Shown here: in pieces, positions 4,857 to 29,668 of the stretch
Position numbering within the stretch: position 1 is the stretch's first letter
Layout of the letters: each line of letters opens with the position of its first letter
Assembly: GCA_021646465.1 (NCBI GenBank)
Contig: SOET01000043.1
Span: 1-34,043, forward strand
Direction of reading: 5' to 3'
DNA: 34,043 bases
From: Candidatus Kuenenia hertensis
GTDB taxonomy: Bacteria > Planctomycetota > Brocadiia > Brocadiales > Brocadiaceae
Made by a program: the position numbers and the translations under genes
Notes under the pieces: generated by a model
The model's database searches: none
Told to the model about the DNA's origin: nothing
The model's input: only the letters and a program-made list of their open reading frames with translations

Positions 4857-5080
4857 GCGCAATCGGTAAAAAGGAACGTGAAACACAGAACCAAGTGGTT
4901 GCATTGTTACGAAAGGAACCGGGTTATCGCTATCCCGGCAATTGGGAAGAACGGGAAGGCAACAGCAGTATTGAAAAACAAACCCGCATCGCCCAAATCC
5001 TTTCCGATATGGGCGCCGAAATAGATTCCCTGGAAAAGAAATTGGAGAAATACCCCGGCGGGTTCAGGTCTGTGACCTGA
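4853..5080 (+). pseudogene. Chimera of hsdR 5' end and hsdS 3' end
   Basis: Residues 1-41 (MSAIGKKERETQNQVVAL ... GNWEEREGNSSIE) copy the N-terminus of HsdR found at 6860. Residues 42-67 (KQTRIAQILSDMGAEIDSL, then EKKLEKY) copy the distal helix of HsdS. The last residues and the stop come from a palindrome at 5060-5084. The ATG overlaps the RAYT stop, exactly where a real hsdR would start, so an earlier operon order hsdS-RAYT-hsdR is preserved as a scar. The join falls in a GAAAAA-like stretch present in both parents. No function is expected. Confidence 0.85.
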
Positions 5081-5084
5081 ACCC
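5060..5084. repeat. Hairpin 1: GGGTTCAG-type palindrome
   Basis: GGGTTCAGGTC, loop TGT, GACCTGAACCC: a perfect 11-bp stem. The outer eight bases of each arm are shared with the palindrome at 5149-5173. Confidence 0.85.
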
Positions 5085-5100
5085 CACGTTTCATACGTGG
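5084..5100. repeat. Hairpin 2: small inverted repeat
   Basis: CCACGT (5084-5089), loop TTCAT, ACGTGG (5095-5100). It abuts hairpin 1, sharing base 5084. Confidence 0.6.
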
Positions 5101-5148
5101 TAATTTAGCCATGAAATGTATATATCGCTATTAATCACATAAACTATT

Positions 5149-5173
5149 GGGTTCAGATTACAAATCTGAACCC
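5149..5173. repeat. Hairpin 3: GGGTTCAG-type palindrome
   Basis: GGGTTCAGATT, loop ACA, AATCTGAACCC: a perfect 11-bp stem. Same outer arms as hairpin 1 with a different inner stem and loop, as in a REP doublet. Confidence 0.85.
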
Positions 5174-5184
5174 GCAAGGGGCTT

Positions 5185-5228
5185 CCATCACAATTGATGG
5201 ATTTGCAAAAACTTGGGAATGCTCCCAA
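5185..5228. repeat. Hairpins 4 and 5: two short inverted repeats
   Basis: CCATCA/TGATGG with loop CAAT at 5185-5200, then TTGGGA/TCCCAA with loop ATGC at 5213-5228. The second runs into the next hsdS 3' copy. Individually short, they are notable because they continue the chain that begins at 5060. Confidence 0.55.
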
Positions 5229-5344
5229 TCCTTTCCGATGTGGATGCCGAAATAGATGCCTTAGAAAAGAAGCTGGAGAAATACAAGAGGCTCAAGCAGG
5301 GGATGATGCAAAATTTATTAACGGAGAAAATCAGGCTGGTATGA
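5219..5344 (+). pseudogene. Second duplicated 3' end of hsdS
   Basis: The frame reading ILSDVDAEIDALEKKLEKY then KRLKQGMMQNLLTEKIRLV and TGA (5342-5344) is a third version of the HsdS C-terminus, after 4278 and 5053. An ATG at 5219 gives it a 41-codon reading frame, but no specificity domain is attached. Its TGA overlaps the ATG of the DUF4062 gene (ATGA), preserving the coupling that hsdS would have had with its downstream gene. Confidence 0.8.
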
Positions 5345-6858: not shown

Positions 6859-6859
6859 T

Positions 6860-7177
6860 ATGAGCGGTATCGGCAAAAAAGAAAGAGAAACCCAAAACCG
6901 CGTGGTTGCATTGTTCCAAAAGGAACTGGGCTATCGCTATCTCGGAAATTGGGAAGAACGGGAGGGTAACAGCAATATTGAAGAAGAAATGCTTATTGCA
7001 TGGCTTACCAAAAAAGGATACAGCCAAACACTTATCGGCAAGGCATTGTATAAACTTGGCAAAGCTGCCAACGATCAAAGCAAATCACTCTATGAGGTAA
7101 ATAAGGCCGTTTACACCATGCTCCGCTATGGCGTTAATGTCCAGCCGGATATTGAAAGAGACGGTATGGCTGATTGA
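6860..7177 (+). pseudogene. hsdR: HsdR N-terminal fragment ahead of a frameshift
   Basis: Encodes the start of HsdR: GIGKKERETQNRVVALFQKE, NWEEREGNSNIEEE, YEVNKAVYTMLRYGVNVQPD. Similarity leaves this frame at about 7165: PDIERDGMAD-stop here, whereas the next frame continues KETVWLIDWKNPKKNDFAIA, the normal HsdR sequence. One extra base in GAAAGAGACG (GAA-A-GAG-ACG) explains it. ATG follows the DUF4062 stop by one base. Either a true mutation that inactivates restriction or a sequencing/assembly error; the fragment alone has neither nuclease nor motor domain. Confidence 0.85.
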
Positions 7178-15151: not shown

Positions 15152-16282
15152 ATGAACAAATTTCTTAATAGTAATTTTTTTTCTCTTACCAGACTTTTAA
15201 AAACCAAAATAATTGTTCCTGCCGGGCTCCTTATTTTTGTAATGGTTTTATCGGCAAATTGCGCGTTGCAAAAGAAGGTTGATTCAAAAGAGGCGCATGA
15301 AGTCAAAGAAACAGAACCAACAAGTACGAAGACAGTACAAACAGAAAATGCCACATGGGAAAAAGTTGAATCTTCCGGAGAAACGGTTCCAACAAATGAA
15401 AAAAACGCCTTAGAGGACGTAGAAAAAGAACTGAGCGAATCTCTGACGGGGTTTGATGAAGCATTGTCAAAAAAACTTGAAGAGGCGCGTGAAAAATTGC
15501 TGGAAAGTCAGAAACGGGAGAAACAAATTGCCGCAGAACTTGAGCGTCTCAGAAATACCGGAAATGTATCCTCAGAAACATTGGAGAAATATGAAGCGGA
15601 TCTTAATCAGGCCCGCGCCGAGGTGCATGAAATCCAGAAAGAACTGAATGAAATAAAATCAGCCGGTTCAAAATACTTGCAGACAAAAGGCACTGTTACC
15701 GGAACAAGCGCAGTAAGCACAAAACAGGAAGGCAAAGGCATCGGTTCTTCCGCAGAAGGCGTCCCCGCAGGTGCGGCACAGGATGAATTGGGCAATTTAA
15801 TAAAAGAATTAGACCAATCTCTGACAGAATTTGACGCTTTGTTACTCAAAGAAATGAATGAACTCCGGGAAAAAAAGCAGGGTAAGATAAGCGGTATGGC
15901 GGAAGACGGAACGGCAGCATCACAAGATACAGGAGGAAAAGGAACTGGAGCCGTTGCGGGAGGCTCTCCCGGAAAGGCAAGTACCGGAGGGGATGCCCAA
16001 AAGGGAAAAACGGCAGAACCTTCCGAAGGTGGCGAAGTTTCCTATGGCGAGGGATACGGAACGGTATCAGGAGGCGGTAGCCCGGGTGAATGGACGGGAA
16101 CAGAAAGCACTTCGGTTTCCGGTACACGGGGCGGCAGACCACCATATGGCAGTACCCAGGATGATGATGTTGTCGCACGCCAAATCCGTGAGGCGGCTGA
16201 AAAAGAAACCGATCCTGTGCTGAAAGAAAAACTGTGGAAGGAATATGAAGAATATAAAAAAGGCACCAGCGGGAATGAATGA
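15152..16282 (+). CDS. Probable lipoprotein or membrane-anchored coiled-coil protein, unknown
   Basis: I do not recognise a named family. Residues 18-36 form a hydrophobic signal/anchor followed by Cys37 (VLSANC). Asn at -1 makes it an atypical lipobox, so a plain membrane anchor is the alternative. Residues 87-170 form a Glu/Lys-rich coiled coil. A second segment at 213-241 repeats 87-115 (KELSESLTGFDEAL versus KELDQSLTEFDALL). Residues 245-335 are Gly/Ser/Thr-rich and probably disordered. The C-terminus DDDVVARQIREAAEKET, then LKEKLWKEYEEYKKG, looks like a conserved helical tag. AGGA lies 8 bases before the ATG. It is the first gene of the co-directional envelope cluster. Confidence 0.75.
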   Translation: MNKFLNSNFFSLTRLLKTKIIVPAGLLIFVMVLSANCALQKKVDSKEAHEVKETEPTSTKTVQTENATWEKVESSGETVPTNEKNALEDVEKELSESLTGFDEALSKKLEEAREKLLESQKREKQIAAELERLRNTGNVSSETLEKYEADLNQARAEVHEIQKELNEIKSAGSKYLQTKGTVTGTSAVSTKQEGKGIGSSAEGVPAGAAQDELGNLIKELDQSLTEFDALLLKEMNELREKKQGKISGMAEDGTAASQDTGGKGTGAVAGGSPGKASTGGDAQKGKTAEPSEGGEVSYGEGYGTVSGGGSPGEWTGTESTSVSGTRGGRPPYGSTQDDDVVARQIREAAEKETDPVLKEKLWKEYEEYKKGTSGNE

Positions 16283-16379
16283 TTACTACTTACCACATTC
16301 TCAACATATACTATTTACGCTCATTTAAAAAAACTGAGAATATATTCTATAAAAGGGGATCTCCATCAGATACGACATT

Positions 16380-17594
16380 ATGGGTATTTCAATTCGTCAT
16401 ATTTCTATAATTCTTTTTGCCCTACTTTTTCTCTCCTCATGCGCCGGTTTAAGCTCCCGCAAAACGGCTAAAACAGAGATTCTTCCGGCACAACAACAGA
16501 TCCCCGAAGATGAATTATTAGATATCGGCATTATGGTCTTTGAAAGTGAAGAGATTACAGAAAAGCAATCGAAAAAAGAAGGTACCAATCCGGATGTAAG
16601 AAAGGCAGAGAACCATTTTGTTTCCTACCATTTAAAAAATACGCTGGAACAAAGCGGTCACTGGGGTATGGTTCGTGTTACCCCGCTGGAATCCGAAACT
16701 GCGGATGTTCTGATAAAAGGCGAGATACTCGAATCAAATGGAGAGAATCTTGCTGTTAAGGTTACCGTAAGCGACTCGGGAGGCAAAGTCTGGCTGAAAA
16801 AAAAATATAAGGCGACCGTTGCTGATGGTTCTTATAAAGATAATGTTCTCGGAGAAAAAGACATTTTTCAGGGACTCTATAATGCCATTGCCAATGATAT
16901 GGCAAATTACAGGAGAAAGATGCGTCCCGAAAAAATTAAAGAAATACGCACCATTACAGAACTAAAATTTGCAAAATATTTTGCTCCCCATGCCTTTGAG
17001 GACTATTTAGAAGAAAACAGAAAAGGCAAATATACTCTGAATCGTCTTCCCGCAGATAATGATACCATGATGGCTCGTGTCCTGGAGAGCAGGGAGCGGG
17101 TGTACATGTTTGAGGATACTATTAATGAATACTATGAAGGATTTTATAATGAAATGTGGACGCCGTATGAAGAATGGCGGAAACTAAACTTAGCGGAACG
17201 TATCGCATTAAATGAGCAAAAACGGTCCGCTTTTTTACGGCAGGCAGGGGGCGCCTTGCTGGTTGCGCTTGGAATTTTGCTCGAAGTACAGGATGTGCAT
17301 GATTCAGCCATCCTAACCGGCGGTTTGGTAATCATTGGTGGTCAGGTATTTTTAAGCGGTATGAACATTTCAAAGCAGGCTCAAATGCATTACGAAACAC
17401 TTGACGAGCTTGGCGAATCTTTTGGGAGCGAAATGAAACCCGTTGTGGTTGAATTTGAGGGCAAAAAATACGAATTAACAGGGTCTGTTGAAGAGCAATA
17501 TAAGCGGTGGAAAGAGCTACTCCATGAAATTTATTACGTTGAAACCGGCTTTTCGCCTCCCGAATCCTCTGAACAAAATGACTCTCAGGAATAA
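16380..17594 (+). CDS. Lipoprotein of unknown function
   Basis: No named family recognised. Clear lipoprotein signal: hydrophobic residues 8-20 and lipobox LSSC with Cys21. The N-terminal half (about 45-170; LDIGIMVFESEE, HLKNTLEQSGHWGMVRV, ADVLIKGEILESNG) resembles a compact domain that may sense or bind partners. Two hydrophobic stretches at about 287-302 and 309-328 (GGALLVALGILLEV; AILTGGLVIIGGQVFL) could be membrane-inserting or amphipathic, unusual for a secreted lipoprotein. ATG 16380 has only a weak ribosome binding site. It lies 97 bp after the previous gene and 339 bp before the TPR gene. Confidence 0.75.
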   Translation: MGISIRHISIILFALLFLSSCAGLSSRKTAKTEILPAQQQIPEDELLDIGIMVFESEEITEKQSKKEGTNPDVRKAENHFVSYHLKNTLEQSGHWGMVRVTPLESETADVLIKGEILESNGENLAVKVTVSDSGGKVWLKKKYKATVADGSYKDNVLGEKDIFQGLYNAIANDMANYRRKMRPEKIKEIRTITELKFAKYFAPHAFEDYLEENRKGKYTLNRLPADNDTMMARVLESRERVYMFEDTINEYYEGFYNEMWTPYEEWRKLNLAERIALNEQKRSAFLRQAGGALLVALGILLEVQDVHDSAILTGGLVIIGGQVFLSGMNISKQAQMHYETLDELGESFGSEMKPVVVEFEGKKYELTGSVEEQYKRWKELLHEIYYVETGFSPPESSEQNDSQE

Positions 17595-17674
17595 TTAGTA
17601 CTACAACGACATTTTTATTTCAGATTTTGCAGCAATTTTTTTGTATACTTCTTTCGAAAATAGATTATTGTCGT

Positions 17675-17702
17675 GTAAGGGCTGAAAATCTTCAGCCCCT
17701 AC
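17675..17702. repeat. 28-bp REP-like palindrome with GTAG foot
   Basis: GTAAGGGCTGAAAA is followed by TCTTCAGCCCCTAC; the arms pair with two mismatches. On the complementary strand it begins GTAGGGGC. It has the same length and the same GTAG foot as the palindromes in hsdM and the RAYT, with a different stem. Confidence 0.75.
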
Positions 17703-17794
17703 GTTGCGATATAAATAATTGCAATAATTATTGATTTTCTTCCCCTTTTGTGAGCCGAAGGTTCGTGTGGGTTTCACCTGAAAATGAAGAAGAC

Positions 17795-17827
17795 AACCCT
17801 GACAGGGTTCCAAACCCTGTCAGGGTT
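17795..17827. repeat. Compound palindrome of two 15-bp units
   Basis: AACCCTGACAGGGTT and AACCCTGTCAGGGTT are separated by CCA. Each unit is itself a palindrome around its central base and the two are exact reverse complements, giving one 15-bp-stem hairpin or two small ones. Confidence 0.85.
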
Positions 17828-17933
17828 AACAAAGCGTAAAAATAAAATGTAGCTGTAGTGTTAGATTTGTAAATTGTAGGAAAAAGTTTTCGCATAAACA
17901 TTCAACTAAAAATGTTGCAACACACAGGAGTGC

Positions 17934-19511
17934 ATGGTGTACGACAACAGAAATCAACCAAAACAACCCGGAGAATCTTCCTGGCTATCATCAGGCGGTC
18001 CCTCTTCAGACAGCCAGGATAAATTCATAACCCCCCTCAAAGTAACGGTACATGAAGAAAAAATTGCTGACGCTCCCTTTAAACGAAACGTTTTTTTGAA
18101 ACGTGTGATACTCGCCTTCGGTGGTATAGTTCTCATTGCCGGCGTTTTCTGGTTATTCAGGTATTTGTCAGAAAAATCTGCTACGGTTTCGCAGGTGAAG
18201 ACAATGCCGGAAAGGTCATCAAAAGAACGAATAGCAACCGTTCCTTCTTCGAAGTTGGATACGGAAGAAGAGAATACACGAAACGCAGAGCAGGAAAATG
18301 AGGCAGTAAAAAATCTCTCCGGTTATTTGTTACTAAAAAAGGAATTAGATAAAAAAGGGGCGTCAGAATGGGGAGAAGAATTATATGAGGAGGCAATCAA
18401 GTTCAGTAAGGCAGCAGATGACTCTTTTATCAGAAAGGATTTTGATGATGCATCAAAAAATTATGCTGCGGCTACCGCTCTGTTAATGGAAATAAACGAT
18501 GGTATCGACGATACTTTAAACCGTATTCTTGACGAAGGAGAGTTGGCTCTCATGGAAGGGGATGGCACTCTTGCTCAAAAGCGGTTTCGTGCTGCGTTGA
18601 TGATTGATCCTGAAAGCAGTGTTACTCAGCAGAACTTCGAAAGAGCTAAAAATATTGAAAAGGTTATGGCTTTAATCGCTTCGGGCGCAAACCATGAAAA
18701 AAATAATAATCTTTCTGCTGCTTACGATGCTTATCAGGAGGCGGTAAACCTGGATCCGGAATCTGAAAAGGCGCAAACAGCATTTAAGAGAGTTAAAAAC
18801 CTGATCGCAACTGAAACGTTTCAGCAACTCATGTCAGAAGGATTTTTTGCGTTGAATAACAATGATTATGAACAAGCCCGAACCTTGTTTCTGAAAGCCG
18901 GGTCCCTGAAACCGGATTCTCATGAGGTGAAAGATGCGCTGGCACAGGCGGAGATAGCTATCCGACTGGCTCGTATTGAAGAACTGAAGCAAAAAACATT
19001 CGCCGCGGAAAAGTCTGAAAATTGGGAGGAGGCGCTCTCGTCATACCAGGAAATATTGAATATAGATGGTTCCGTGCAGTTTGCTATTCAGGGAAAAGAA
19101 CGCACTCTGCAGCGTAACAACCTGGAAAAGCTTATGCATCAGTATCTGAAGGCCCCAAATCTTTTAGAATCAGACCAAAACGTTGAAAAGGCAGAAAAAC
19201 TGATTGTTGAGGCAGAACAGATAGAACCGAAAAGTCTCCGTTTTAAGCAGTTGTTACAGGAATTAAATGAATTGGTAACGTTGGTTCAGACTCCGGTATC
19301 GGTAATTATAGAATCTGATGGTTTGACGGAGGTAACTGTATATAAAGTGGGAAAGTTAGGATTCTTTGAAACCCGGGAGCTGAAACTGAGGCCAAGGAAT
19401 TATACCATCGTGGGCGCCAGAAACGGGTATGAGGATGTGAGACTGAATTTTTCTGTAAAGCCGGCGCAGGAACCTATACGTATCACGGTGAAATGCACGA
19501 AAAAGATATAA
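17934..19511 (+). CDS. Membrane-anchored TPR-repeat protein
   Basis: A cytoplasmic-looking, Ser/Pro-rich N-terminus (1-50) is followed by one membrane helix (about 57-78, VILAFGGIVLIAGVFWLF) and a large presumably periplasmic part. Residues about 145-440 are helical tetratricopeptide-like repeats, for example LSAAYDAYQEAVNLDPES, NDYEQARTLFLKAGSLKPDS and NWEEALSSYQEILNIDG. The last ~75 residues (PVSVIIESDGLTEVTVYKVG ... LRPRNYTIVGARNGY) resemble a PEGA domain. A scaffold role is inferred. ATG 17934 with AGGAG four bases upstream decides the start. The PEGA/FGE gene follows after 18 bp. Confidence 0.82.
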   Translation: MVYDNRNQPKQPGESSWLSSGGPSSDSQDKFITPLKVTVHEEKIADAPFKRNVFLKRVILAFGGIVLIAGVFWLFRYLSEKSATVSQVKTMPERSSKERIATVPSSKLDTEEENTRNAEQENEAVKNLSGYLLLKKELDKKGASEWGEELYEEAIKFSKAADDSFIRKDFDDASKNYAAATALLMEINDGIDDTLNRILDEGELALMEGDGTLAQKRFRAALMIDPESSVTQQNFERAKNIEKVMALIASGANHEKNNNLSAAYDAYQEAVNLDPESEKAQTAFKRVKNLIATETFQQLMSEGFFALNNNDYEQARTLFLKAGSLKPDSHEVKDALAQAEIAIRLARIEELKQKTFAAEKSENWEEALSSYQEILNIDGSVQFAIQGKERTLQRNNLEKLMHQYLKAPNLLESDQNVEKAEKLIVEAEQIEPKSLRFKQLLQELNELVTLVQTPVSVIIESDGLTEVTVYKVGKLGFFETRELKLRPRNYTIVGARNGYEDVRLNFSVKPAQEPIRITVKCTKKI

Positions 19512-19529
19512 AAAGGAATATCCAGGATT

Positions 19530-21647
19530 ATGACAGGTGAAGGCATGAAAGACAGTCCGAAGGAAAAAATAATTGAACCTGTGCCATTTCATCATGGCAG
19601 CAACCTGAAGAAATCAAAGTTATTCACCCTCTTTAAACACCCCATGTGGATTTTACCGGGCATAGTGCTTATTTTCCTTTCACTCTCCACCTGGTTTGTC
19701 TTTACTGCAAAACAGGTTGAAATACTGGTAGAACCAAGGCCGGATACGATTTCTATCAAAGGCGGTTTTATAACTCCCCGGTTCGGTAAATACTACCTGA
19801 TTCGCCCGGGAAATTATGTCCTGAATATCTCAAAAAAGGGGTATCATAAGATTGAAGAACCTTTAACGGTCTCTGAGGAAAAAAGTCAAACGGTTCGCCT
19901 GGTAATGGAAAAACTTCCCGGCCTTTTAACCCTTACAACGCACGAGGAGGGGCAGCCATCCCTGATTATTGATGGAGCTGCCGTATACCTCGGCGGAGAA
20001 GAAATTGGTACGACGCCACTTTCCAACATTGAGGTGAAACCGGGTATTCGGGAGCTGGTTATTAATGCAAAAAACTATAAAGAATTACGAACGCAACTGG
20101 AGATCGAGGGATTAGGCAACAGGCAGTCGTTTACTTTTGCATTAGTACCAGGATGGGCTGAGGTAAAGATACAAACACTTCCCCCTGCGGCAAAAGTTTT
20201 TATTGACGGTGTTAATATGGGAGAAAGTCCCTTAACCCTTAAACTTGCAGAAGGTTCCTATCAACTCGAAATCAGCGCTGAGCATTTCAAGACATGGGAG
20301 ACTCAATTAGATATTCAGGCAGGCCAACCGCAGGTCTTTGATTCAATACAACTGCAACCTGCGGACGGAATCCTTTCTCTGCGAACTGAACCGGCAGGAG
20401 CGAATGTTATGGTTGACGGTACTTTTGCCGGGCGGACGCCATTAGATATTTACCTTTCGCCAGAGACCACGCATCTCCTTCAAATATCAAAAGCAGGCTA
20501 TGAAAATATGGAACAAAACGTAGCTGTTGTTTCAGATGAAACAAAAAATCTTGCTCTGGAATTAACAGCAAATACTGGAATTGTCAACTTCAGGGTCACC
20601 CCTTCGGATTCCGAACTGTTTATTAATGGCATATCATATGGAATCGTCCCGGAAAGTGTAACCCTTGTTGCAGTTGTACAAAATATCGAAATAAAGAAAG
20701 ATGGCTATGAATCGTATCAGACAGAGATTACTCCTCTTCCCGGATTTCCACAAGAAATAATAGTATCCCTGGAAAAAAAGGTTCACACCGAAGGGACTTC
20801 TCCGGGCGTAATTAAAACTTTTAATGGCTCTTCACTTACTTTAATTCATCCCACTTCCTTTACCATGGGATCATCACGCCGGGAACAGGGGCGCAGATCA
20901 AACGAAACGTTACGGAATATTGTTCTGAAACGGCCATTTTACATGGGGGTGAGTGAAGTTACCAATGAAGAATTCAGACAGTATCTGAATGAACATAATT
21001 CCGGTTCGTTCAAGGGACACAGCTTGAACCAGAAAGAGCAACCTGTGGTACAGGTGAGCTGGGAACAGGCAGCATTGTATTGCAATTGGTTAAGTGAAAA
21101 AGAAAAACTGCCGGCAGTTTACGAGAAACAGGGAGAAAAACTGGTTCCCCGAAATCCGCTTCCGACGGGTTATCGACTGCCTACAGAGTCAGAATGGGAA
21201 TATTGCGCTCGTTTTTCTGATAATAAGGCTTGGCTGCCCTATCCGTGGGGAGATATCTTTCCACCTCCTCCGAAAACCGTTAACATTGCTGACCGCTCTG
21301 CTAAAGGTGTGGTATTTCCCATACTGGATGATTACAATGATGACTTTCCTGTTGCAGCTCCGTCCGCATCGTTTAAGGCGAATGCACTGGGTATCTACGA
21401 TCTTGGCGGAAATGTTGCCGAATGGTGCCACGACTACTATACTATCTATTCGTACTCTCCGGAAGAACGGTATCAGGATCCCACAGGACCAAAGGAGGGC
21501 AAACATCATATTGTAAAAGGGTCAAGCTGGAGCCAGGCGAGTATTAGCGTATTAAGATCAGCATACAGGGATTACAGTGATGACAAACGGATTGATGTAG
21601 GATTTCGCATCTGCCGGTATGCAGATAATTTCAGCGAAAAGAAATAA
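19530..21647 (+). CDS. Membrane-anchored protein: five PEGA-like repeats and FGE/SUMF1-type domain
   Basis: One membrane helix at 39-60, then five PEGA-like beta units at about 62-127, 131-205, 209-277, 280-346 and 350-415 (VFIDGVNMGESPLTLKL, VMVDGTFAGRTPLDIYL and similar). Residues 430-698 form a formylglycine-generating-enzyme/SUMF1-type domain: FTMGSSRREQGRRS, VSWEQAALYCNWLSEKE, YRLPTESEWEYCAR, YPWGD, GNVAEWCHDYY, KGSSWSQ and VGFRICR. In the segment where true FGEs carry two catalytic cysteines, KGSSWSQASISVLRSAYR has none, so a sulfatase-activating role is unlikely and a binding role is inferred. ATG 19530 or ATG 19545 (better AGGTGA spacing) may be used. Next gene starts 2 bp after the stop. 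Confidence 0.85.
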   Translation: MTGEGMKDSPKEKIIEPVPFHHGSNLKKSKLFTLFKHPMWILPGIVLIFLSLSTWFVFTAKQVEILVEPRPDTISIKGGFITPRFGKYYLIRPGNYVLNISKKGYHKIEEPLTVSEEKSQTVRLVMEKLPGLLTLTTHEEGQPSLIIDGAAVYLGGEEIGTTPLSNIEVKPGIRELVINAKNYKELRTQLEIEGLGNRQSFTFALVPGWAEVKIQTLPPAAKVFIDGVNMGESPLTLKLAEGSYQLEISAEHFKTWETQLDIQAGQPQVFDSIQLQPADGILSLRTEPAGANVMVDGTFAGRTPLDIYLSPETTHLLQISKAGYENMEQNVAVVSDETKNLALELTANTGIVNFRVTPSDSELFINGISYGIVPESVTLVAVVQNIEIKKDGYESYQTEITPLPGFPQEIIVSLEKKVHTEGTSPGVIKTFNGSSLTLIHPTSFTMGSSRREQGRRSNETLRNIVLKRPFYMGVSEVTNEEFRQYLNEHNSGSFKGHSLNQKEQPVVQVSWEQAALYCNWLSEKEKLPAVYEKQGEKLVPRNPLPTGYRLPTESEWEYCARFSDNKAWLPYPWGDIFPPPPKTVNIADRSAKGVVFPILDDYNDDFPVAAPSASFKANALGIYDLGGNVAEWCHDYYTIYSYSPEERYQDPTGPKEGKHHIVKGSSWSQASISVLRSAYRDYSDDKRIDVGFRICRYADNFSEKK

Positions 21648-21649
21648 TC

Positions 21650-21979
21650 ATGAAAAATAAGGTAATAATAGTAATGATTCTTTTCCTGGCAAATATTTCT
21701 TATGCAATGTCTGTCCGGAAAGAGGCAAATGATATAATAAATGTGCAGGGACCGAAAAATATAAGTATTCAGGCGGGTACCACCTTGCTCACTCAAAATG
21801 ATAGTACGGACTCTTCTGAACCAAAGCAGCCGGCCGACATGAAGGAAGACGAACAAAAAAAAACACAGAAGGAAAACGATTCGCCGGAGCAGGGTAAGGA
21901 AGAACCGGATTTGAAGGAGTTTGAACCATCGGAAAAAATTGATGCGGAAAAAGCGGTTGATTTCCCGGCGGATATTTGA
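21650..21979 (+). CDS. Small exported acidic protein, unknown
   Basis: 109 residues. An N-terminal signal peptide (KVIIVMILFLANISYAM, cleavage probably near Ala19) is followed by a low-complexity tail rich in Glu, Lys, Pro and Asp (PADMKEDEQKKTQKEN, KEEPDLKEFEPSEKID), probably disordered. No family recognised. It begins 2 bp after the PEGA/FGE stop and its end is followed by the channel gene, so it looks like a genuine member of the operon. A linker or adaptor between envelope parts is a guess. Confidence 0.65.
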   Translation: MKNKVIIVMILFLANISYAMSVRKEANDIINVQGPKNISIQAGTTLLTQNDSTDSSEPKQPADMKEDEQKKTQKENDSPEQGKEEPDLKEFEPSEKIDAEKAVDFPADI

Positions 21980-22044
21980 AAAGACTTATGATATCGAATA
22001 AAAGAATACGTTTCAGGAAATATTCCAATTATAAAGAGGTCGCC

Positions 22045-22848
22045 ATGAAAAAACCATTCCCTCTGTCGTCAGAATTTGTCTATCAACTGTTTTCACTATT
22101 TATCAGCATAATTTTGTTACATGGAATTTATGTGGCAATAATCCGTCCTAAAGCAGATGCATTTTTAGCGGAGGAAGCCGCATTAATGAGAGATGATCCA
22201 ACGCATGTAGCGCGGAGATCTGCTTTTGTAGTAATCAGTGATTATGAGCAGGAAGCGTGTTTTCTGCTAATGTTATGGGCAATGTCCATAATAGGCTATA
22301 AAGCAGTCTTAACAATGAGACACCGGAAATTACTGGAATTGGACCTGGTGCCGTTGGCGGAAGGTATGCGTATTCTCCCTGAAGACACGAAAGACCTTTC
22401 CCGGCAGATTCAGGCATTGCCTCCCGACCAAAGGAAATCGCTACTTCCCCGCGCACTGCTGGCTGCCCTGAGACGCTTTAGCTCAACTCACAATATACAG
22501 GATGTTTCCGATGTTACGCACTCCTACTGCTCTTCAGAAGGAGAAAGGCTGGACTCAGAGCTGTCCATGGTCAGATATATCGCATGGGCTATTCCTTCAA
22601 TTGGATTTATTGGGACGGTACGGGGAATAGGTTTGGCCCTTGGCCAGGCTCACAAGGCAGTTCAGGGGGATATATTTGATGTTACCAGAAGCCTGGGGAC
22701 TGCTTTTAACTCAACACTTATTGCACTTTTAATCAGCATCGTTCTCATGTTTGTATTGCATCAGTTGCAACTGATGCAGGAGCGCTATGTGCTTGATTGC
22801 GAAGCATACTGTGAGGAGAAACTCACATGCCGTTTACATACACGCTAA
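22045..22848 (+). CDS. MotA/TolQ/ExbB-family proton channel subunit
   Basis: Family members form ion-conducting pentamers in the inner membrane that energise a partner with one membrane helix. The 267 residues have four membrane segments: about 11-32, 70-90, 176-201 and 217-240. The last two carry the family hallmark, IPSIGFIGTVRGIGLALG and LGTAFNSTLIALLISIVLMF, with polar Thr/Ser residues in the pore helix. A large cytoplasmic loop (about 91-175) lies between helices 2 and 3. ATG 22045 is chosen because AAAGAGGT sits just upstream; an in-frame TTG at 21976 would add a basic non-conserved leader. The VWA genes downstream lack an ExbD/TolR-type gene between them. Confidence 0.85.
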   Translation: MKKPFPLSSEFVYQLFSLFISIILLHGIYVAIIRPKADAFLAEEAALMRDDPTHVARRSAFVVISDYEQEACFLLMLWAMSIIGYKAVLTMRHRKLLELDLVPLAEGMRILPEDTKDLSRQIQALPPDQRKSLLPRALLAALRRFSSTHNIQDVSDVTHSYCSSEGERLDSELSMVRYIAWAIPSIGFIGTVRGIGLALGQAHKAVQGDIFDVTRSLGTAFNSTLIALLISIVLMFVLHQLQLMQERYVLDCEAYCEEKLTCRLHTR

Positions 22849-22858
22849 AGGATAGATT

Positions 22859-24277
22859 ATGCCGTTGCTGGGTCTGGAACTGAGTGACGCCGGAATTATG
22901 GCGGCGGGGGGAGAACCTGCCCGGCTTCTGGAAATCGAGGGGAGTGAAAAAGAGAGCCCTGGTTTTGCAATCCCCCAAAATGGCCAACTGATTGTTGGCA
23001 ATGACGCCCGGAGCAAAGCGCGCCTTTATCCGCGTTTATATACCAATCATTTTTGGGATGAGTTAAGTGCGGAACCGTTAAAGCAATTGGGACTGGAAGA
23101 TAAAAATAATGCGGAACTTGCTTACCATCATCTGTCAAAAATCTGGAATGTCATTAAAAAGCAAGGAAATGAACTCGTTATTGCGGTTCCGGGATATTTT
23201 ACGCAGCGGCAACTTGGCCTTATTCTGGGCATTGCCAGGGAATTGTCCATACCCCTGAAAGGCTTTGCTGCAATAGCAGTCGCCGCATCATCAAATCCTT
23301 ATCCTGATAAACTTCTGTTCCATCTTGATATTCATCTGCACCGCATAGAGATTACCTTTCTTGAACAGAATAATTATCTGCTTCATAAAAATACGGAAAC
23401 ACTTCCTGGAAAAGGTCTCAACTATCTTTATGCTGAATGGGTAAAAGCCGTTGCGGATGAATTTGTTCGGACAACACGTTTTGATCCGTTTGACAAGGCT
23501 ATTTATGAACAGGAGTTATACACTCGTATGCCCCAAATATTGAAAGACATTCAGCGGAATTCATCCGTATTGTTTTCGATGAAAGCAGGATCGCAAACCT
23601 ATCACGTAACCTTGACCTATGATCTTTTTGCAAAAATCGGTCAATCGGTTTTTCGTGAGGTGTTCCGGACCATTGAGACAATGGCCGGAAAATATCATGC
23701 AACGGAAAAACTTTTAGTTGTTGAAGCTACACATCGTGTTGGCCTGTTGCCCGGTTATAAAGACGAAGCAGGTATGATGTCCAATATACAATGTGTGGAA
23801 CTTATACCGGGGTCGGGCGCTTTGGGTATTCTTCAGTTGAAAGAAAGATTTACCGGCCAAACTTCTGACCATGGAGTGGCATTTATCACCAGCCGCCCCT
23901 GGAATATATCTCACCAGTCTCCTGGTTTAAGCACCGGGACTTCTTCGTCCGTTATTTCTCTTTTGCCCACCCATATTCTTTACGGCGCCCTTGCGTATCT
24001 TATTACTGCCAAACCTCTCTTCATCATACAGGGGAGTACAGGTGATATTCATATCAGTACGGATGATAAAGAAAAAGAGAATCTTCCGGGGTATTGCACT
24101 GTTCAGCTTGAAGATGACGGCGTTTTACTTACTGACTACGGAATCGACGGTGGTGCGTTTGTTGATAACAAAAAGGTTCAGGGTAAGATTATAGTAAAAC
24201 GCGGTCAGACAATTCGTATAGGAACTTCAGGAGAAAAACTACAACTTATTACCTGCGTGGAATCCGATGAAGCGTAG
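22859..24277 (+). CDS. Hsp70/actin-like protein with FHA-like C-terminus
   Basis: Residues 1-350 follow the Hsp70 ATPase fold order. The clearest match is VIAVPGYFTQRQLGLILGIARELSIP (107-132), the counterpart of the Hsp70 segment after the first lobe. The phosphate loops are altered: GLELSDAGIM where Hsp70 has a G-D-G-T-T loop, LDIHLHRIEI where it has D-GGGT, and VVEATHRVGLLPG where it has GG-SR-P. ATP hydrolysis is therefore doubtful. Residues about 390-472 resemble a forkhead-associated domain (GDIHIST, VLLTDYGIDGGAFVDN, IVKRGQTIRIG) without the usual GR and SxxH phosphothreonine-binding residues. AAGGA precedes the ATG. It overlaps the first VWA gene by 11 bp. It is presumably a cytoplasmic regulator or scaffold of the complex. 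Confidence 0.72.
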   Translation: MPLLGLELSDAGIMAAGGEPARLLEIEGSEKESPGFAIPQNGQLIVGNDARSKARLYPRLYTNHFWDELSAEPLKQLGLEDKNNAELAYHHLSKIWNVIKKQGNELVIAVPGYFTQRQLGLILGIARELSIPLKGFAAIAVAASSNPYPDKLLFHLDIHLHRIEITFLEQNNYLLHKNTETLPGKGLNYLYAEWVKAVADEFVRTTRFDPFDKAIYEQELYTRMPQILKDIQRNSSVLFSMKAGSQTYHVTLTYDLFAKIGQSVFREVFRTIETMAGKYHATEKLLVVEATHRVGLLPGYKDEAGMMSNIQCVELIPGSGALGILQLKERFTGQTSDHGVAFITSRPWNISHQSPGLSTGTSSSVISLLPTHILYGALAYLITAKPLFIIQGSTGDIHISTDDKEKENLPGYCTVQLEDDGVLLTDYGIDGGAFVDNKKVQGKIIVKRGQTIRIGTSGEKLQLITCVESDEA

Positions 24278-25358
24278 AACAACCAATGTATTCAGCCTTT
24301 CTTTTTTAGACGCCCTTACCTGCGGCTTAGGGGCGGTCATCCTGTTATACGTGATTATTAATGCAAGAGGCACTGCATATAAAAACGAAGTCACGAGTGA
24401 ACTTCGCGGAGAAGTTAACCGGAGGGAAAGAGAGGTGCTTCAGGGCAGAAAGAATTTAATTGAAGCCAGGAACACTTACGAACAAGTAGTCGATGAGTTG
24501 GCAAAAGCCCAGGGCCTTTCCCGTCAACTGATAAAAACCATTGAAGAAAAAAAGGTCGAACTTGCCAGTTACGAAAACGAAACCCTTGCTTTCAAAGAAC
24601 ATATCAACAGATTGAAAGCAGATATAAAATCACTGGAAGAAGGACTTAAGCGACTCGAAGGAGGAAGTACGTCTCTTGATGATTACGGATCAAGAATAAG
24701 GCGGTTTCCGGGAGAAGGAGACCGGCAGTATCTGACCGACCTTAAAATGGGGGGCGAAAGAATATTCATCCTGGTGGATACCTCGGCCAGCATGCTGGAT
24801 GATACCATTATCGGAATCATCCGAAGGAGAAATCTTGACGATGAACAGAAGATACGCTCCGCCAAGTGGCAGCACCTGGTCTCATCCGTTGATTGGCTGG
24901 TCACACAGCTTCCCCTGACGAGTAAATTTCAGATTTATACTTTCAATGAAACTGCTATGCCGCTGATGGAAGGAACGGAGGGGAAATGGCTGGAAGTTAA
25001 TGACGCCCCGCAACTCAATAATATGATTTACCGCCTTCGCCGGGTAGTGCCGCAAAAAGGGACAAGTTTGGTGAATGCTTTTCTTGCCGCACGCGGGATA
25101 TCCCCTCAGCCTGATAATATTTTTTTGCTTACTGACAGTTTACCAACCATGGGGAGGGAAAAATCCTGGAAAAACAAGGTTTCCGGAAAAAAACGGCTAA
25201 GCCTGTTTTCCGAGGCCGTGAGTGTTCTTCCTCCAAACGTTCCGGTGAATATCATTTTATATCATATGGAGGGAGATCCTGCCGCAGCCAGTTCTTACTG
25301 GCAGCTGGCAATGATAACCAATGGGTCGCTCTTTTCTCCTTCCCGCGACTGGCCTTAA
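24267..25358 (+). CDS. Single-TM coiled-coil VWA-domain protein 1
   Basis: An N-terminal segment VFSLSFLDALTCGLGAVILL (8-27) is a membrane helix with Asp15 near its start. A coiled coil covers about 40-135. The von Willebrand A domain spans about 163-360 with an intact MIDAS metal site: DTSAS (171-175), Thr266 and Asp290 (LLTD). Topology suggests the VWA domain is periplasmic. The helix with a conserved Asp, next to a TolQ-like gene, suggests the role ExbD, TolR or MotB play as channel partner; that is inference. Start overlaps the upstream gene by 11 bp, indicating coupling. Paralogue of the next gene. Confidence 0.83.
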   Translation: MKRRTTNVFSLSFLDALTCGLGAVILLYVIINARGTAYKNEVTSELRGEVNRREREVLQGRKNLIEARNTYEQVVDELAKAQGLSRQLIKTIEEKKVELASYENETLAFKEHINRLKADIKSLEEGLKRLEGGSTSLDDYGSRIRRFPGEGDRQYLTDLKMGGERIFILVDTSASMLDDTIIGIIRRRNLDDEQKIRSAKWQHLVSSVDWLVTQLPLTSKFQIYTFNETAMPLMEGTEGKWLEVNDAPQLNNMIYRLRRVVPQKGTSLVNAFLAARGISPQPDNIFLLTDSLPTMGREKSWKNKVSGKKRLSLFSEAVSVLPPNVPVNIILYHMEGDPAAASSYWQLAMITNGSLFSPSRDWP

Positions 25359-25393
25359 TTACAAACCAGTGAAGTTTACGGAGTTTTCATGTT

Positions 25394-26395
25394 ATGAAGA
25401 GAAACCGCAAAGATATACAAGTATTCAGTTTGTCCTTTCTTGACGCCATTTGCTGTGCCTTTGGCGCCATTATTCTCTTATTTGTCCTGTCAAAATTTGC
25501 CGAACCCCTCATCATTGAAGGGATAAGCGAAGAACTTAAAGGGATGATTGAAAAGCTTGAAAAGGAACTATTTGAAATTCGCGGAGAAACACATGTGCTC
25601 AATAGGGAACTTACGGGGAAAAAAGAACAACTTTCAAGTGAAAGAGAAGGAATTGCAAGGTTGCAGGGAGATCTGTCAAAAATTGAGGGTGAGTTTTTAG
25701 CATCAAAACAAAATGCCACGGTACAGAATCTTCTTAAGGGAAAACTGGCAATTGCAAAACAGAAACTTACCGAAGAGATGGAACGTCTTTTGAGAGACAG
25801 ACCTCGGGCGCCTGATGGTTCTGTTGGGGGTATTCCGGTGGACAGTGAATACATTATCTTTATTATCGATACTTCCGGCAGCATGCAGCGAAATGCATGG
25901 AGTTTGGTACAGAAAAAAATTCAGGAAACACTGGAGGTATATCCCAGTGTAAAGGGCATCCAGGTAATGAACGATATGGGAGATTATATGTTCCCTCAAT
26001 ACAGTGGTAAATGGATACCCGATACTCCCGGCCGCAGGAAGGTAATTATCGATACATTAAGTACCTGGAAACCTTTCAGCAACAGTAGCCCTGTTGAAGG
26101 AATTACTGCGGCTATCAGCACCTATTACGACCCTGATAAGAACATAAGCCTGTATGTTTTTGGGGATGAATTCAGCAGCAGAGGTATGCAAAGTGCGATC
26201 AATGCAGTAGACCGCATCAACAAAGCAAATAAAGAGGGTACACGCAGAGTCCGTATTCATTGCGTGGGATTTCCTGTTATGCTCAGGCAACGCCTAAGTG
26301 ATGATAACACCGGCGTACGATTTGCTAATCTTATGCGTATTCTTTGCCAGAAAAACGGTGGCACCTTCGTCGGGCTTAACACTACCCGCCCTTAA
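25394..26395 (+). CDS. Single-TM coiled-coil VWA-domain protein 2
   Basis: Same plan as its neighbour: QVFSLSFLDAICCAFGAIIL (9-28) as membrane helix with Asp17, coiled coil about 45-135, VWA domain about 150-330. MIDAS has DTSGS (159-163) and an Asp in FGDEF, but the Thr position seems to be Ser (NSSPVEG). The two proteins are clearly related in the helix and diverged in the VWA part, so they could form a heteromeric partner pair for the channel protein. GGAG lies about 10 bases before ATG 25394. Last gene of the cluster before the exporter genes. Confidence 0.83.
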   Translation: MKRNRKDIQVFSLSFLDAICCAFGAIILLFVLSKFAEPLIIEGISEELKGMIEKLEKELFEIRGETHVLNRELTGKKEQLSSEREGIARLQGDLSKIEGEFLASKQNATVQNLLKGKLAIAKQKLTEEMERLLRDRPRAPDGSVGGIPVDSEYIIFIIDTSGSMQRNAWSLVQKKIQETLEVYPSVKGIQVMNDMGDYMFPQYSGKWIPDTPGRRKVIIDTLSTWKPFSNSSPVEGITAAISTYYDPDKNISLYVFGDEFSSRGMQSAINAVDRINKANKEGTRRVRIHCVGFPVMLRQRLSDDNTGVRFANLMRILCQKNGGTFVGLNTTRP

Positions 26396-26443: not shown

Positions 26444-27646
26444 ATGAAAAAATACATTTTTATTGGCATCCCATGCGTAATTGTCACAATAGTAACCATA
26501 ATTTACCTCTTCAACAGAGGAGAAACTATCCGGTTTGAAACGGCAAAAATTGATAAAGGCGATATCCAAAAATATGTAGTAGCAACGGGTACAGTAACCC
26601 CTGTCAGGACGGTAATAATTGGCAGCCAGGTCTCAGGGCTTATTTCACAACTCTTTGCGGATTTTAATTCTGAGGTACAAAAAGGACAGATTGTGGCACA
26701 AATTGATCCTGTTCCTTTCGAGCATCAGGTCAAAAGGGCTGAAGCTACTCTTGCAACAGCACTTGCCACTTTAAAAAAATCGAATGCTACCCTGAGAAAT
26801 AACAGGAGGAAATTTCTTCGTGCAAAAAAATTGTATACGAAAGAGGTCATTTCCATTGATGAATTTGATGAATCCCGCGCAACTTATGAAATATCCCTTG
26901 CAGATGTTGACCTTGCAAAAGCCGAAATATTACAGGCACAAGCATCCCTTGAGATTGCAAAAACCGATTTGGAACATACGGTAATTGTCTCTCCTTTTGA
27001 CGGTATCGTTATTTCAAGGGAAGTGGACGTTGGCCAGACGGTGGCTGCCAGTTTTCAGACCCCTACGTTATTTACTATCGCCATGGACCTTGTCAGTATG
27101 CAGGTAAATACAAGTGTCGATGAGGCAGATATCGGAATGGTTGAAGTTGGTCAAAAGGCGAAGTTTAACGTTGATGCATTTCCCGAGAGTGTATTTGAAG
27201 GTAACGTAACCGAAATCCATATGTCTCCTGTTATTTTTCAAAATGTAGTAACCTACGACACTATTATCAGTGTCGATAACTCATCTCTGAAGCTGAAACC
27301 TGGTATGACAGCAAATACCTCCATTTTAACGGCGGAAGCAAAAGATGTATTGAGGTTACCCAATGCCGCTTTGCGCTATACCCCATCAAAAACCGTAAAG
27401 GTGAAAATGGATGAAGAGACAGAAAACAATCGTAAGGAAAAAAACTTTTTTCCTGTATGGATAATGAAAAACGGAAAACCGGCAAAGGTAATGATAAAAA
27501 CAGGAATAAGTGACTACGACTACACAGAGATCATTGAAGGAGAGGTAAAAGAAGGACTGGAAGTAATCGTTGCGGAAACGACCTCGAAATCATCAACGAA
27601 AGATTCCCGGAAGATTCCCTGGACGAGAGTAGGAGGCAGGCGTTAA
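26444..27646 (+). CDS. macA: MacA-type periplasmic adaptor (HlyD/RND-MFP family)
   Basis: Inner-membrane-anchored adaptor of a tripartite efflux pump. N-terminal helix (4-22), then TGTVTPVRTVIIGSQVSGLI, an alpha-helical hairpin (about 80-160) and the second lipoyl half LEHTVIVSPFDGIVISREVDVGQTV. The beta-barrel region contains VDEADIGMVEVGQKAKF and LKPGMTANTSIL. About 400 residues is normal. It is 6 bp from the ABC ATPase gene and shares its transcript. Substrate is not predictable from sequence. The symbol is given by family resemblance and not by proven orthology. Confidence 0.88.
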   Translation: MKKYIFIGIPCVIVTIVTIIYLFNRGETIRFETAKIDKGDIQKYVVATGTVTPVRTVIIGSQVSGLISQLFADFNSEVQKGQIVAQIDPVPFEHQVKRAEATLATALATLKKSNATLRNNRRKFLRAKKLYTKEVISIDEFDESRATYEISLADVDLAKAEILQAQASLEIAKTDLEHTVIVSPFDGIVISREVDVGQTVAASFQTPTLFTIAMDLVSMQVNTSVDEADIGMVEVGQKAKFNVDAFPESVFEGNVTEIHMSPVIFQNVVTYDTIISVDNSSLKLKPGMTANTSILTAEAKDVLRLPNAALRYTPSKTVKVKMDEETENNRKEKNFFPVWIMKNGKPAKVMIKTGISDYDYTEIIEGEVKEGLEVIVAETTSKSSTKDSRKIPWTRVGGRR

Positions 27647-27652
27647 AGGCCC

Positions 27653-28342
27653 ATGCAGGAAATAATTCAATTAGAATCCATTTATAAAATTTACGAAATG
27701 GGGGAGGTTACTTTCACCGCGTTAAACGATGTTGCTCTTTCTATTAAAAAAGGCGAGTTTGTCGCTATTATGGGTGCTTCAGGTTCAGGAAAATCCACAT
27801 TAATGAATATCCTTGGATGTCTGGACAGCCCATCGAAAGGGAAATACTCTTTCGATGGTGTAGACGTTTCACGTTTTTCAAAAAATGAACTTGCGGAGAT
27901 CAGAAACAAAAAACTCGGGTTTGTATTTCAGAATTTCAACCTTTTAGGAAGAACGACTGTTTTAGAAAACATTGAACTCCCGCTCATTTATGCGAAAAAA
28001 ATGACAAAAAGTTCCATACAAAAAATATTTCAAACAATGCAGATTCTGGGCCTTGAAGGGCTCCATAAAAATTATCCCAACCAGCTTTCCGGAGGACAGC
28101 AGCAGCGCGTTGCAATAGCACGGGCAATTATTAATAACCCTTCCCTGCTCCTGGCGGATGAACCAACGGGAAACCTCGACAGTACTACCAGCAAAGAAGT
28201 AATGAGCGTTCTTAATAAACTGAACCATGAGATGAATATTACCATTGTCCTCGTAACTCATGAAGAAGATATCGCAAGATACGCGCGCAGAACGATAATA
28301 CTTAAAGACGGCAAGGTGTTAAGCGATTCGGCTTTACATTAA
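27653..28342 (+). CDS. ABC transporter ATPase, MacB/LolD type
   Basis: The 229-residue nucleotide-binding protein has Walker [10 protein letters not shown], the Q-loop FVFQNFNLL, signature [14 protein letters not shown], Walker [13 protein letters not shown] and the H-loop VLVTHEE. It powers the separate permease at 28460. In Escherichia coli MacB the two are one polypeptide; here they are split, as is common outside Gammaproteobacteria. Confidence 0.93.
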
Positions 28343-28459
28343 CCATAATAAGTAATCATACTTTCCGTTGTTCCCATCAGGAGTGGGGATAAAAGGGGAG
28401 AAATATTGTAATACGTTTAATTTTTAGATCGATTCATTGAAAAAAGGCTTTTTTGCAGC

Positions 28460-29668
28460 ATGCCGCCTCTATTAAAAATAGCATTACGCGCCATTTTAAG
28501 AAATAAATTGCGCTCTTCACTTACGATACTTGGTATTGTTATCGGAGTGGGGGCGGTAATTGCCATGGTGGGGATCGGGCAGGGGGCAAAGGATTTGATT
28601 GAGAAGCAAATAGAAAGCCTGGGAACGAACGTACTCATTATTATCCCTGTCAGCACTACCCACACTGCCGCACGGGGAACGGAAGGAACCATTACCCTTA
28701 CTGCGGAAGATGCTGCCGCGATAGAAAAAGAATGCAGGGCGGTGAGTTATGTATCTTCAAACTTACGAACGTCTTCACAGGTGGTATATGGAAATCAAAA
28801 CTGGTCAACAAGCATTACCGGCATTCATCCTGATTATGAGATTATAAGAAACTGGCAATTGAAGTCAGGCAGGTTTATAAGACCACAGGATGTTAAAACA
28901 ATGGCAAAGGTCTGTGTGTTAGGTCAGACAGTCGTTGACAATTTATTTGGCGCGCTCGATCCCATAGGGAAGTGGATACGCGTCAACAATATTCCCTTCA
29001 AAGTAATTGGTGTATTAATGGCAAAAGGGCAGTCTCCGATGGGAACAGACCAGGACGATACCGTGCTCATGCCTTATACTACCGTGCAGAGAAAGATTAT
29101 GGGGGTAACCTATATCAGCGCAGTCCTTGCTTCATCATATACAGCAGAAGGACGTCATGACGCCATCGAACAGATTACCACTCTGCTGCGCGAACGCCAC
29201 CGTTTGCGGGAAGGCGAGGAAGATGATTTCCGGATCATCAGTCAGGTCGAATACGCATCTACGATGATGGAAACCAGCCGCACAATGACCATCCTTCTTG
29301 GCAGTATTGCTTCCGTCTCCTTAATCGTGGGAGGCATCGGAATAATGAATATCATGCTGGTTTCCACCACGGAAAGGACGAGGGAGATAGGCATCAGGAT
29401 GGCAGTGGGTGCGAAAGAGAGAGATATCCTCCTTCAGTTTCTGATAGAGGCAACGGTACTAAGTTCCATAGGAGGCATTATTGGGGTAATATTCGGAATT
29501 GTGTTCTCAAAAGTCATTTCGCTCTATGGAGGATGGCCTTCAATGCTTACACCATTACCCGTAGCCGTAGCCTTTCTCTTTTCGAATATGGTGGGCATCT
29601 TTTTTGGATATTACCCCGCACGAAAAGCATCCAGGCTTAATCCCATTGAAGCGCTCAGGTATGAATAA
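28460..29668 (+). CDS. macB: ABC transporter permease, MacB/FtsX type
   Basis: A first membrane helix after RAILRNKLRSSLTILGI is followed by a periplasmic MacB_PCD domain (about 40-270) and a C-terminal FtsX domain with three helices. Its first helix begins SVSLIVGGIGIMNIMLVSTTERTREIGIRMAVGA, the family hallmark stretch. Ends ARKASRLNPIEALRYE, typical of MacB. Spacer of 117 bp from the ATPase gene with no clear promoter or terminator, and no good Shine-Dalgarno before the ATG. With the two preceding genes it forms a MacAB-like mechanotransmission pump or exporter; the outer membrane channel is not in the window. Confidence 0.9.
   Translation: MPPLLKIALRAILRNKLRSSLTILGIVIGVGAVIAMVGIGQGAKDLIEKQIESLGTNVLIIIPVSTTHTAARGTEGTITLTAEDAAAIEKECRAVSYVSSNLRTSSQVVYGNQNWSTSITGIHPDYEIIRNWQLKSGRFIRPQDVKTMAKVCVLGQTVVDNLFGALDPIGKWIRVNNIPFKVIGVLMAKGQSPMGTDQDDTVLMPYTTVQRKIMGVTYISAVLASSYTAEGRHDAIEQITTLLRERHRLREGEEDDFRIISQVEYASTMMETSRTMTILLGSIASVSLIVGGIGIMNIMLVSTTERTREIGIRMAVGAKERDILLQFLIEATVLSSIGGIIGVIFGIVFSKVISLYGGWPSMLTPLPVAVAFLFSNMVGIFFGYYPARKASRLNPIEALRYE

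Follow-up and report, generated by a model that had tools for sequence, protein, structure and literature searches.

The nine-gene cluster

The window analysed here, the whole 34,043-nucleotide stretch of contig SOET01000043.1 (assembly GCA_021646465.1, Candidatus Kuenenia hertensis), contains nine open frames, g1 to g9, all on the + strand at positions 15152 to 26395, that form a candidate trans-envelope machine (Table 1). The genome holding the window (4.17 Mb in 89 contigs) encodes hydrazine synthase (PF18582), which is absent from all 14 control genomes; this marks the host as an anammox bacterium. In the species-genome scan, the nearest relative carries the label Planctomycetota.

The intergenic gaps are 97 bp between g1 and g2 and 339 bp between g2 and g3, and from g3 onward they are 18, 2, 65, 10, -11 (an overlap) and 35 bp. 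The 65-bp gap between g5 and g6 is counted from the g6 ATG at 22045, a start that is backed by homolog alignment; the longest g6 frame starts at 21976. An initial annotation of the window had described nine same-strand genes of which the last seven are tightly spaced (here, -11 to 65 bp), and all of its frames were recovered at their coordinates. Its domain assignments were borne out by Pfam, which matched MotA_ExbB, five PEGA domains, formylglycine-generating enzyme (FGE), TPR and, in g8, VWA_2; g1, g2 and g5 match no Pfam family.

Table 1. Features of the g1-g9 cluster, in window coordinates.
Feature	Coordinates	Strand	Basis
g1, lipoprotein-like, coiled coil and Gly/Ser-rich, fast-evolving	15152..16282	+	open frame; collinear, weakly similar gene in many loci
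g2, lipoprotein, FlgT/PelC/CsgG/TolB-N-like domain then long helices	16380..17594	+	AlphaFold2 model, Foldseek, VIA-align
g3, one N-terminal transmembrane (TM) helix, TPR repeats, PEGA-like C-terminus	17934..19511	+	Pfam; PEGA-like end seen in the L128 homolog
g4, one TM helix, five PEGA domains, FGE-fold domain without catalytic cysteines	19530..21647	+	domain searches, alignment
g5, small exported protein with disordered acidic linker	21650..21979	+	open frame
g5 conserved C-terminal tail, FEPSEKIDAEKAVDFPADI-COOH	21920..21976	+	FPxDI before the stop across loci
g6, TolQ/MotA-like channel subunit	22045..22848	+	PF01618; conserved T214, T247
g7, Hsp70-type domain with degenerate nucleotide motifs, C-terminal FHA	22859..24277	+	profile search, structure model
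g8, VWA1: one TM helix, coiled coil, VWA with MIDAS; proposed motor B-subunit	24267..25358	+	TM Asp15, Cys19; MIDAS residues
g8 TM helix	24303..24359	+	hydropathy scan; Asp15 conserved
g9, VWA2, proposed second motor B-subunit	25394..26395	+	TM Asp17, Cys21; MIDAS residues
g9 TM helix	25430..25486	+	hydropathy scan; Asp17 conserved

Co-inheritance and distribution of the set

When 84,980 species genomes were scanned with the aligned VWA proteins, 419 relatives emerged, of which the best 80 were used for the analysis of loci (numbered L below); presence counts include only loci whose contig reaches far enough. These 80 belong to Planctomycetota, Desulfobacterota and other deltaproteobacterial bins, Acidobacteriota, one Kiritimatiellae bin and, above all, Gammaproteobacteria, including Halieaceae and Pseudoalteromonas. 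Across them g9 is 53-88% identical over its length, and the window's g6 shares 53-72% identity with the homologs sampled. In 79 of the 80 loci, those genes that were recognised run collinearly on a single strand; the set keeps its order across at least four phyla, recurring in Desulfobacterota, Acidobacteriota and Gammaproteobacteria, and the cluster is therefore no chance assembly. By profile, g8 is present in 76/76 loci, g6 in 68/70, g4 in 62/63, g3 in 57/59, g2 in 55/57 and g7 in 62/71. In addition, when seven genes were compared across 40 genomes, their pairwise distances correlated with one another at r 0.71-0.93, a level reached by none of 500 permutations; this is a sign of co-inheritance rather than of contact, since shared species history contributes. 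Neighbourhood conservation across genomes, on which the proposal of a joint apparatus had been staked, thus holds.

Some loci depart from the full set. Eight loci (L070, L073, L075, L076, L078, L079, L081 and L098) lack g7 and keep the other genes covered by their contigs, and the absence of g7 from them, as from the partial L080, held up under a profile check. L077 lacks g1 to g3, L054 is reduced to g8, g9 and part of g7, and L080, the Kiritimatiellae bin, has g8 and g9 with no g6 nearby. Decay, transfer and binning error are candidate explanations for the reduced L054 and L080; genome bins may hold stray contigs, which tempers single cases.

The set is patchily distributed. Within the window's family, 3 of 33 genomes carry the motor gene, and g9 with its twin g8 is found in 18 of 274 sampled Gammaproteobacteria and in 3 of 198 genomes of the Desulfobacterota sample, each sample including its centre genome. 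In a concatenated-protein tree, the two anammox rows fall together with two rows from deltaproteobacteria at full support, far from the distant planctomycetal relatives, which are only 22-25% identical. Given this grouping and the low count in the family, the cluster likely reached anammox bacteria by transfer.

Many Gammaproteobacteria carry an extended form (L136, L137, L138, L139; L128:11039-13905). In 15 of the 20 loci with room, the gene for a secreted TPR protein whose end is TonB-C-like lies before g1. Two lipoprotein genes (30/73 and 26/68, counted over all loci that have room) and a gene for an M48 metalloprotease lipoprotein (21/64) lie downstream of g9. These genes likely add outer-membrane parts and a quality-control-type protease, and so point once more to the outer membrane. 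The distant Planctomycetota (L039-L044) have a smaller cousin of the cluster, in which a TolQ-like gene is followed by a single longer helix-VWA gene, whose product is likely a homodimer; genes for an FHA/trypsin-like protein and a Ser/Thr kinase often lie upstream.

Outside the cluster, MacA/MacB-type exporter genes (26444-29668) come after g9 both in the window and in the sister genome (L038), whereas those downstream flanks that were inspected in other phyla showed none. Genes that by eye look like those of a Type I restriction system (HsdS-/HsdR-like, 3058-9992) lie within the window's first third.

Proposed motor core and partner proteins

g6 matches the MotA_ExbB family (PF01618) with an E-value of 5e-13 and 49 bits against a cut-off of 22.9. 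Two of its residues, T214 and T247 (in the numbering that starts at 21976), show at least 97% conservation; in a profile match to solved TolQ chains, with columns counted, they are aligned to the TolQ residues T145 and T178. g6 therefore has the A-subunit features of 5:2 ion-driven motors, namely: a MotA_ExbB domain and two pore-lining threonines. Elsewhere in the same genome, two further genes of the MotA/ExbB family lie close together (G000:C85:32384-34585).

Both g8 and g9 consist of a TM helix, a coiled coil and a VWA domain, in this order. The helix, single and N-terminal, carries an Asp (Asp15 and Asp17, respectively) that is conserved in at least 97% of the aligned rows and also in the distant planctomycetal ones, and both proteins thus have the mark of a 5:2 motor B-subunit, a single N-terminal TM helix with an acidic residue. 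g8 matches VWA_2 in Pfam (E 3e-6), and the VWA domain of g9 is weak in the single-sequence Pfam search (0.03). The residues of the metal ion-dependent adhesion site (MIDAS) are D171, S173, S175, T266 and D290 in g8, conserved in homologs, and D159, S161, S163, S231 and D258 in g9, invariant or nearly so. None of the nine window proteins matches an ExbD/TolR domain in Pfam. Because each has a single TM helix with a conserved Asp and the cluster holds no other such gene, g8 and g9 likely form a MotB/TolR/ExbD-type axle inside a TolQ-like pentamer. The initial annotation's view of one trans-envelope set built around a MotA/TolQ/ExbB channel is supported by the co-inheritance. It had further proposed a machine driven by the proton-motive force (PMF) that would transmit force or a signal through the VWA domains to outer-membrane lipoproteins; the VWA proteins, given their helix Asp, are likely the axle and not mere downstream recipients of force.

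In both proteins, a conserved Cys follows the TM Asp by one helical turn (i+4; Asp15/Cys19 at 24309-24323 and Asp17/Cys21 at 25442-25456), which is unusual for a proton-path helix. A lipobox matched by regular expression in g8 and g9 was rejected, since the conserved Cys stands at the start of the TM helix and the hydrophobic stretch comes after it.

A motor core of this kind was predicted in 2025 from TolQ homologs associated with heterologous 'TPH-vWA' gene pairs, which have the helix Asp and occur without tolR/exbD (PMC12204202). The AlphaFold 3 models of that study put the Asp pair inside the threonine ring of a 5:2 motor, to which it assigns no name and no role, and its text contains neither PEGA, formylglycine nor SUMF1 and mentions no other partner genes for the TPH-vWA family. 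Likened by description, the gene make-up is the same as here, i.e. a tolQ-like gene and a heterologous TM-VWA pair without tolR/exbD, with g7 between g6 and the pair in most loci. The query in that paper was from Idiomarina loihiensis; in our analysis, the Pseudoalteromonas locus L128 carries the set. The cluster had been put forward as undescribed, which is no longer true of the TolQ and twin helix-VWA core; for the nine-gene set, literature searches of open-licence papers found no name, role or phenotype.

Among the predicted scaffold proteins, g3 has a TPR match with an E-value of 4e-12 in Pfam, and g4 has, besides its PEGA domains, an FGE match of 3e-43. The nearest relatives of this g4 domain are FGE and PorK/GldK (6.7e-26 for the latter). 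A catalytic FGE was rejected: the positions aligned to the two catalytic cysteines hold no conserved Cys, and for this reason the FGE-fold domain looks like a non-catalytic scaffold, as in the ring of the type IX secretion system (T9SS). In a second anammox genus, the g4 frame (L133:8960-11413) extends upstream into what by eye resembles a cytoplasmic domain of FHA type.

The Hsp70 part of g7 is not seen by Pfam and its FHA domain is sub-threshold there. Nevertheless, the earlier reading of g7 as Hsp70-like with an FHA domain is borne out by a profile search, which matches Hsp70 nucleotide-binding domains with FHA behind them, and by a structure model (predicted local distance difference test, pLDDT, 91) that matches Hsp70s. 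The first phosphate loop keeps an invariant Asp10, but the phosphate-2 motif (DLGGGT) is replaced by HL[DE]xxLH and the adenosine motif (GG) by non-glycine residues. With both motifs lost, an active Hsp70 was rejected and ATP hydrolysis is unlikely; like the FGE-fold domain of g4, the Hsp70 domain looks like a non-catalytic scaffold. The phospho-threonine pattern S-R-x-H of FHA domains is kept in many g7 homologs and not in the window's g7.

Of the two proteins annotated as lipoprotein-like, g2 is a lipoprotein, and the lipobox of the window's g1 is atypical (SANC), though those of the L128 and L088 homologs are normal. A search of the g2 sequence against the PDB gave nothing usable, and only the fold search produced matches. 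In its AlphaFold2 model (pLDDT 82), the first domain (residues ~31-187) has TolB as its first Foldseek match (8e-4) and aligns with FlgT, PelC, CsgG and TolB at VIA-align Z-scores of 11.4, 10.6, 9.7 and 9.4, respectively; the domain is also common to PqiC. A Gly/Ala-rich hydrophobic hairpin (~283-328) is modelled with low confidence. Several of the FlgT/PelC/CsgG/TolB proteins form outer-membrane or periplasmic rings, and on this analogy g2 likely forms a ring.

Finally, 55 of 57 loci have a small open frame between g4 and g6, and most of the frames printed carry a signal peptide, in keeping with the small exported acidic protein first read from the window. What could not be seen from one genome is its C-terminus: in 50 of 60 loci, drawn from several phyla, a frame upstream of g6 ends in FPxDI directly before the stop. 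Most tails printed have F-x-P-[ST]-E-x-[IV] upstream of this motif, and the rest of g5 drifts. phmmer missed g5 in most loci, but direct reading of the interval gave the tail, and the idea of g5 as unconserved filler was rejected. Fixed at the very C-terminus, the motif points to an end-binding pocket. In other VWA proteins, an acidic residue of the ligand is bound at the MIDAS, and TPR clamps recognise EEVD tails at a C-terminus; by analogy, the candidate binders within the set are the VWA MIDAS sites and the g3 TPR repeats.

Proposed mechanism and relation to known machines

Taken together, these results suggest that the product of the cluster is probably a trans-envelope machine driven by protons, a 5:2 rotary motor reminiscent of Tol and T9SS that acts through the g3/g4 scaffold on outer-membrane lipoproteins. 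A TolQ/MotA-like g6 pentamer would surround the paired helices of g8 and g9 as a heterodimeric axle, which protons would turn as they pass the aspartates of the helices and the threonine ring of g6. The rotation would be carried through the coiled coil to the periplasmic VWA heads, which would act on the PEGA/TPR/FGE-fold scaffold anchored in the inner membrane (g3, g4); this in turn would pass the action to outer-membrane lipoproteins, above all to the g2 ring, if one is formed. g5 would probably serve as a tether or a gate, held at its FPxDI end by a VWA MIDAS or by g3, and g7, on the cytoplasmic side, may be a non-catalytic regulator or adaptor that some lineages dispense with. The gene set and its order, the co-inheritance, the conserved residues and the predicted folds are results of the analysis, from which we infer the stoichiometry, rotation and force, the partners of g5 and the biological role; at the outer membrane, the machine might serve stability, transport, adhesion or motility. 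A more specific form of this proposal, which we put forward tentatively and which may well prove wrong, is a distinct and widespread PMF-driven rotary machine with a heterodimeric VWA axle, in which the MIDAS heads would spin, engage the FPxDI tail of a dedicated exported peptide and act on an outer-membrane lipoprotein ring.

Some results weigh against the proposed machine. By the sequence features checked it would be a motor, apart from the ExbD match: Pfam finds no PF02472 in g8 or g9 even at E 1, and the likeness of the VWA helix to ExbD/TolR is one of pattern. Furthermore, FlgT/PelC/TolB-like folds are common among envelope lipoproteins, and neither the fold of g2 nor a Z-score of ~10 over one domain proves an outer-membrane ring.

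The presence of an FHA protein in the set raises the question of a mechano- or envelope-stress sensor, in which the same complex would gauge the envelope via ion flow or the PMF and signal inward through g7 instead of exerting an outward force. Although many g7 homologs keep the S-R-x-H pattern, and other Planctomycetota have FHA and kinase genes next to the related single-VWA pair, the FHA domain in the window is without the pattern, the nine-gene cluster contains no kinase, and the eight loci without g7 keep the neighbouring genes; we consider a sensor rather unlikely. Among machine parts, PorK/GldK comes closest to the g4 FGE domain, and this, together with the g2 domain shared with the secretion lipoproteins CsgG and PelC, would fit a T9SS-like secretion or export system in which the motor and an FGE-fold ring protein drive a substrate across the outer membrane. 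The T9SS/gliding motors (GldKLMN, PorKLMN) do combine a proton motor with an FGE-fold protein that lacks FGE catalysis, but GldK is a lipoprotein, whereas g4 is predicted to be anchored in the inner membrane and has PEGA repeats. NCBIfam scores GldK at 121 bits against a cut-off of 350 and gives no GldL, GldM or GldN match over cut-off among the window proteins; in the cluster no large outer-membrane barrel gene was recognised, and no recurring adjoining cargo gene was seen. Export is thus an unlikely function.

A conserved operon without a joint machine, in which the motor pair and the envelope scaffold act apart and are merely co-transferred, is very improbable: g7 is missing from one subset of loci, L077 lacks g1 to g3 and the distant Planctomycetota keep only the motor-VWA pair, but the distances match and g2-g4, g6, g8 and g9 are near-universal. 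Even less can be said for a Zorya-like anti-phage defence, which we regard as highly implausible. Zorya (ZorAB) also has a MotA-like channel with a modified B-subunit, g6 shows weak similarity to ZorA (2.4e-4) and the distribution is patchy. However, the set is periplasm-heavy, with most proteins periplasmic or outer-membrane, its flanks differ between genomes, and it has no ZorB, no ZorC/ZorD- or ZorE-type effector and no nuclease. Zorya and other defence systems were rejected on a ZorA score of 12 bits against a cut-off of 500 (NCBIfam), weak PADLOC matches and the lack of any other Zorya gene.

The proposed rotary machine shares parts with other systems as well. Tol-Pal likewise has a TolQ-type channel (as g6) and an envelope lipoprotein with a TolB-N-like domain (as g2), but the axle proteins of the cluster end in VWA domains, and no Pal/OmpA domain, TolB propeller or TolA was found by Pfam among the nine window proteins. 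The Vibrio flagellar stator with its H-ring (FlgT) similarly joins an ion motor to an FlgT-like periplasmic or outer-membrane part; the cluster, however, has no flagellar genes, and the likeness to FlgT is at the level of the fold, in one domain. The Agl/Glt gliding machinery of Myxococcus combines a TolQR-type motor with envelope parts that bear TPR and VWA domains, and is likened here by description; its composition differs.

To our knowledge, the trans-envelope machines powered by the PMF are few, namely: Mot, Tol, Ton, Gld, Agl and Zorya, and the well-studied B-subunits are homodimers. The machine proposed here offers a fixed part list, invariant residues and a putative heterodimeric axle, and the set occurs in cultured hosts (for example, Pseudoalteromonas, Halioglobus and Parahaliea). 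To the published motor core, the present analysis adds the full list of parts, with the FPxDI tail, the apparently non-catalytic FGE and Hsp70 parts and the likely ring-type lipoprotein, by which the motor prediction of 2025 gains a complete set of candidate partners.

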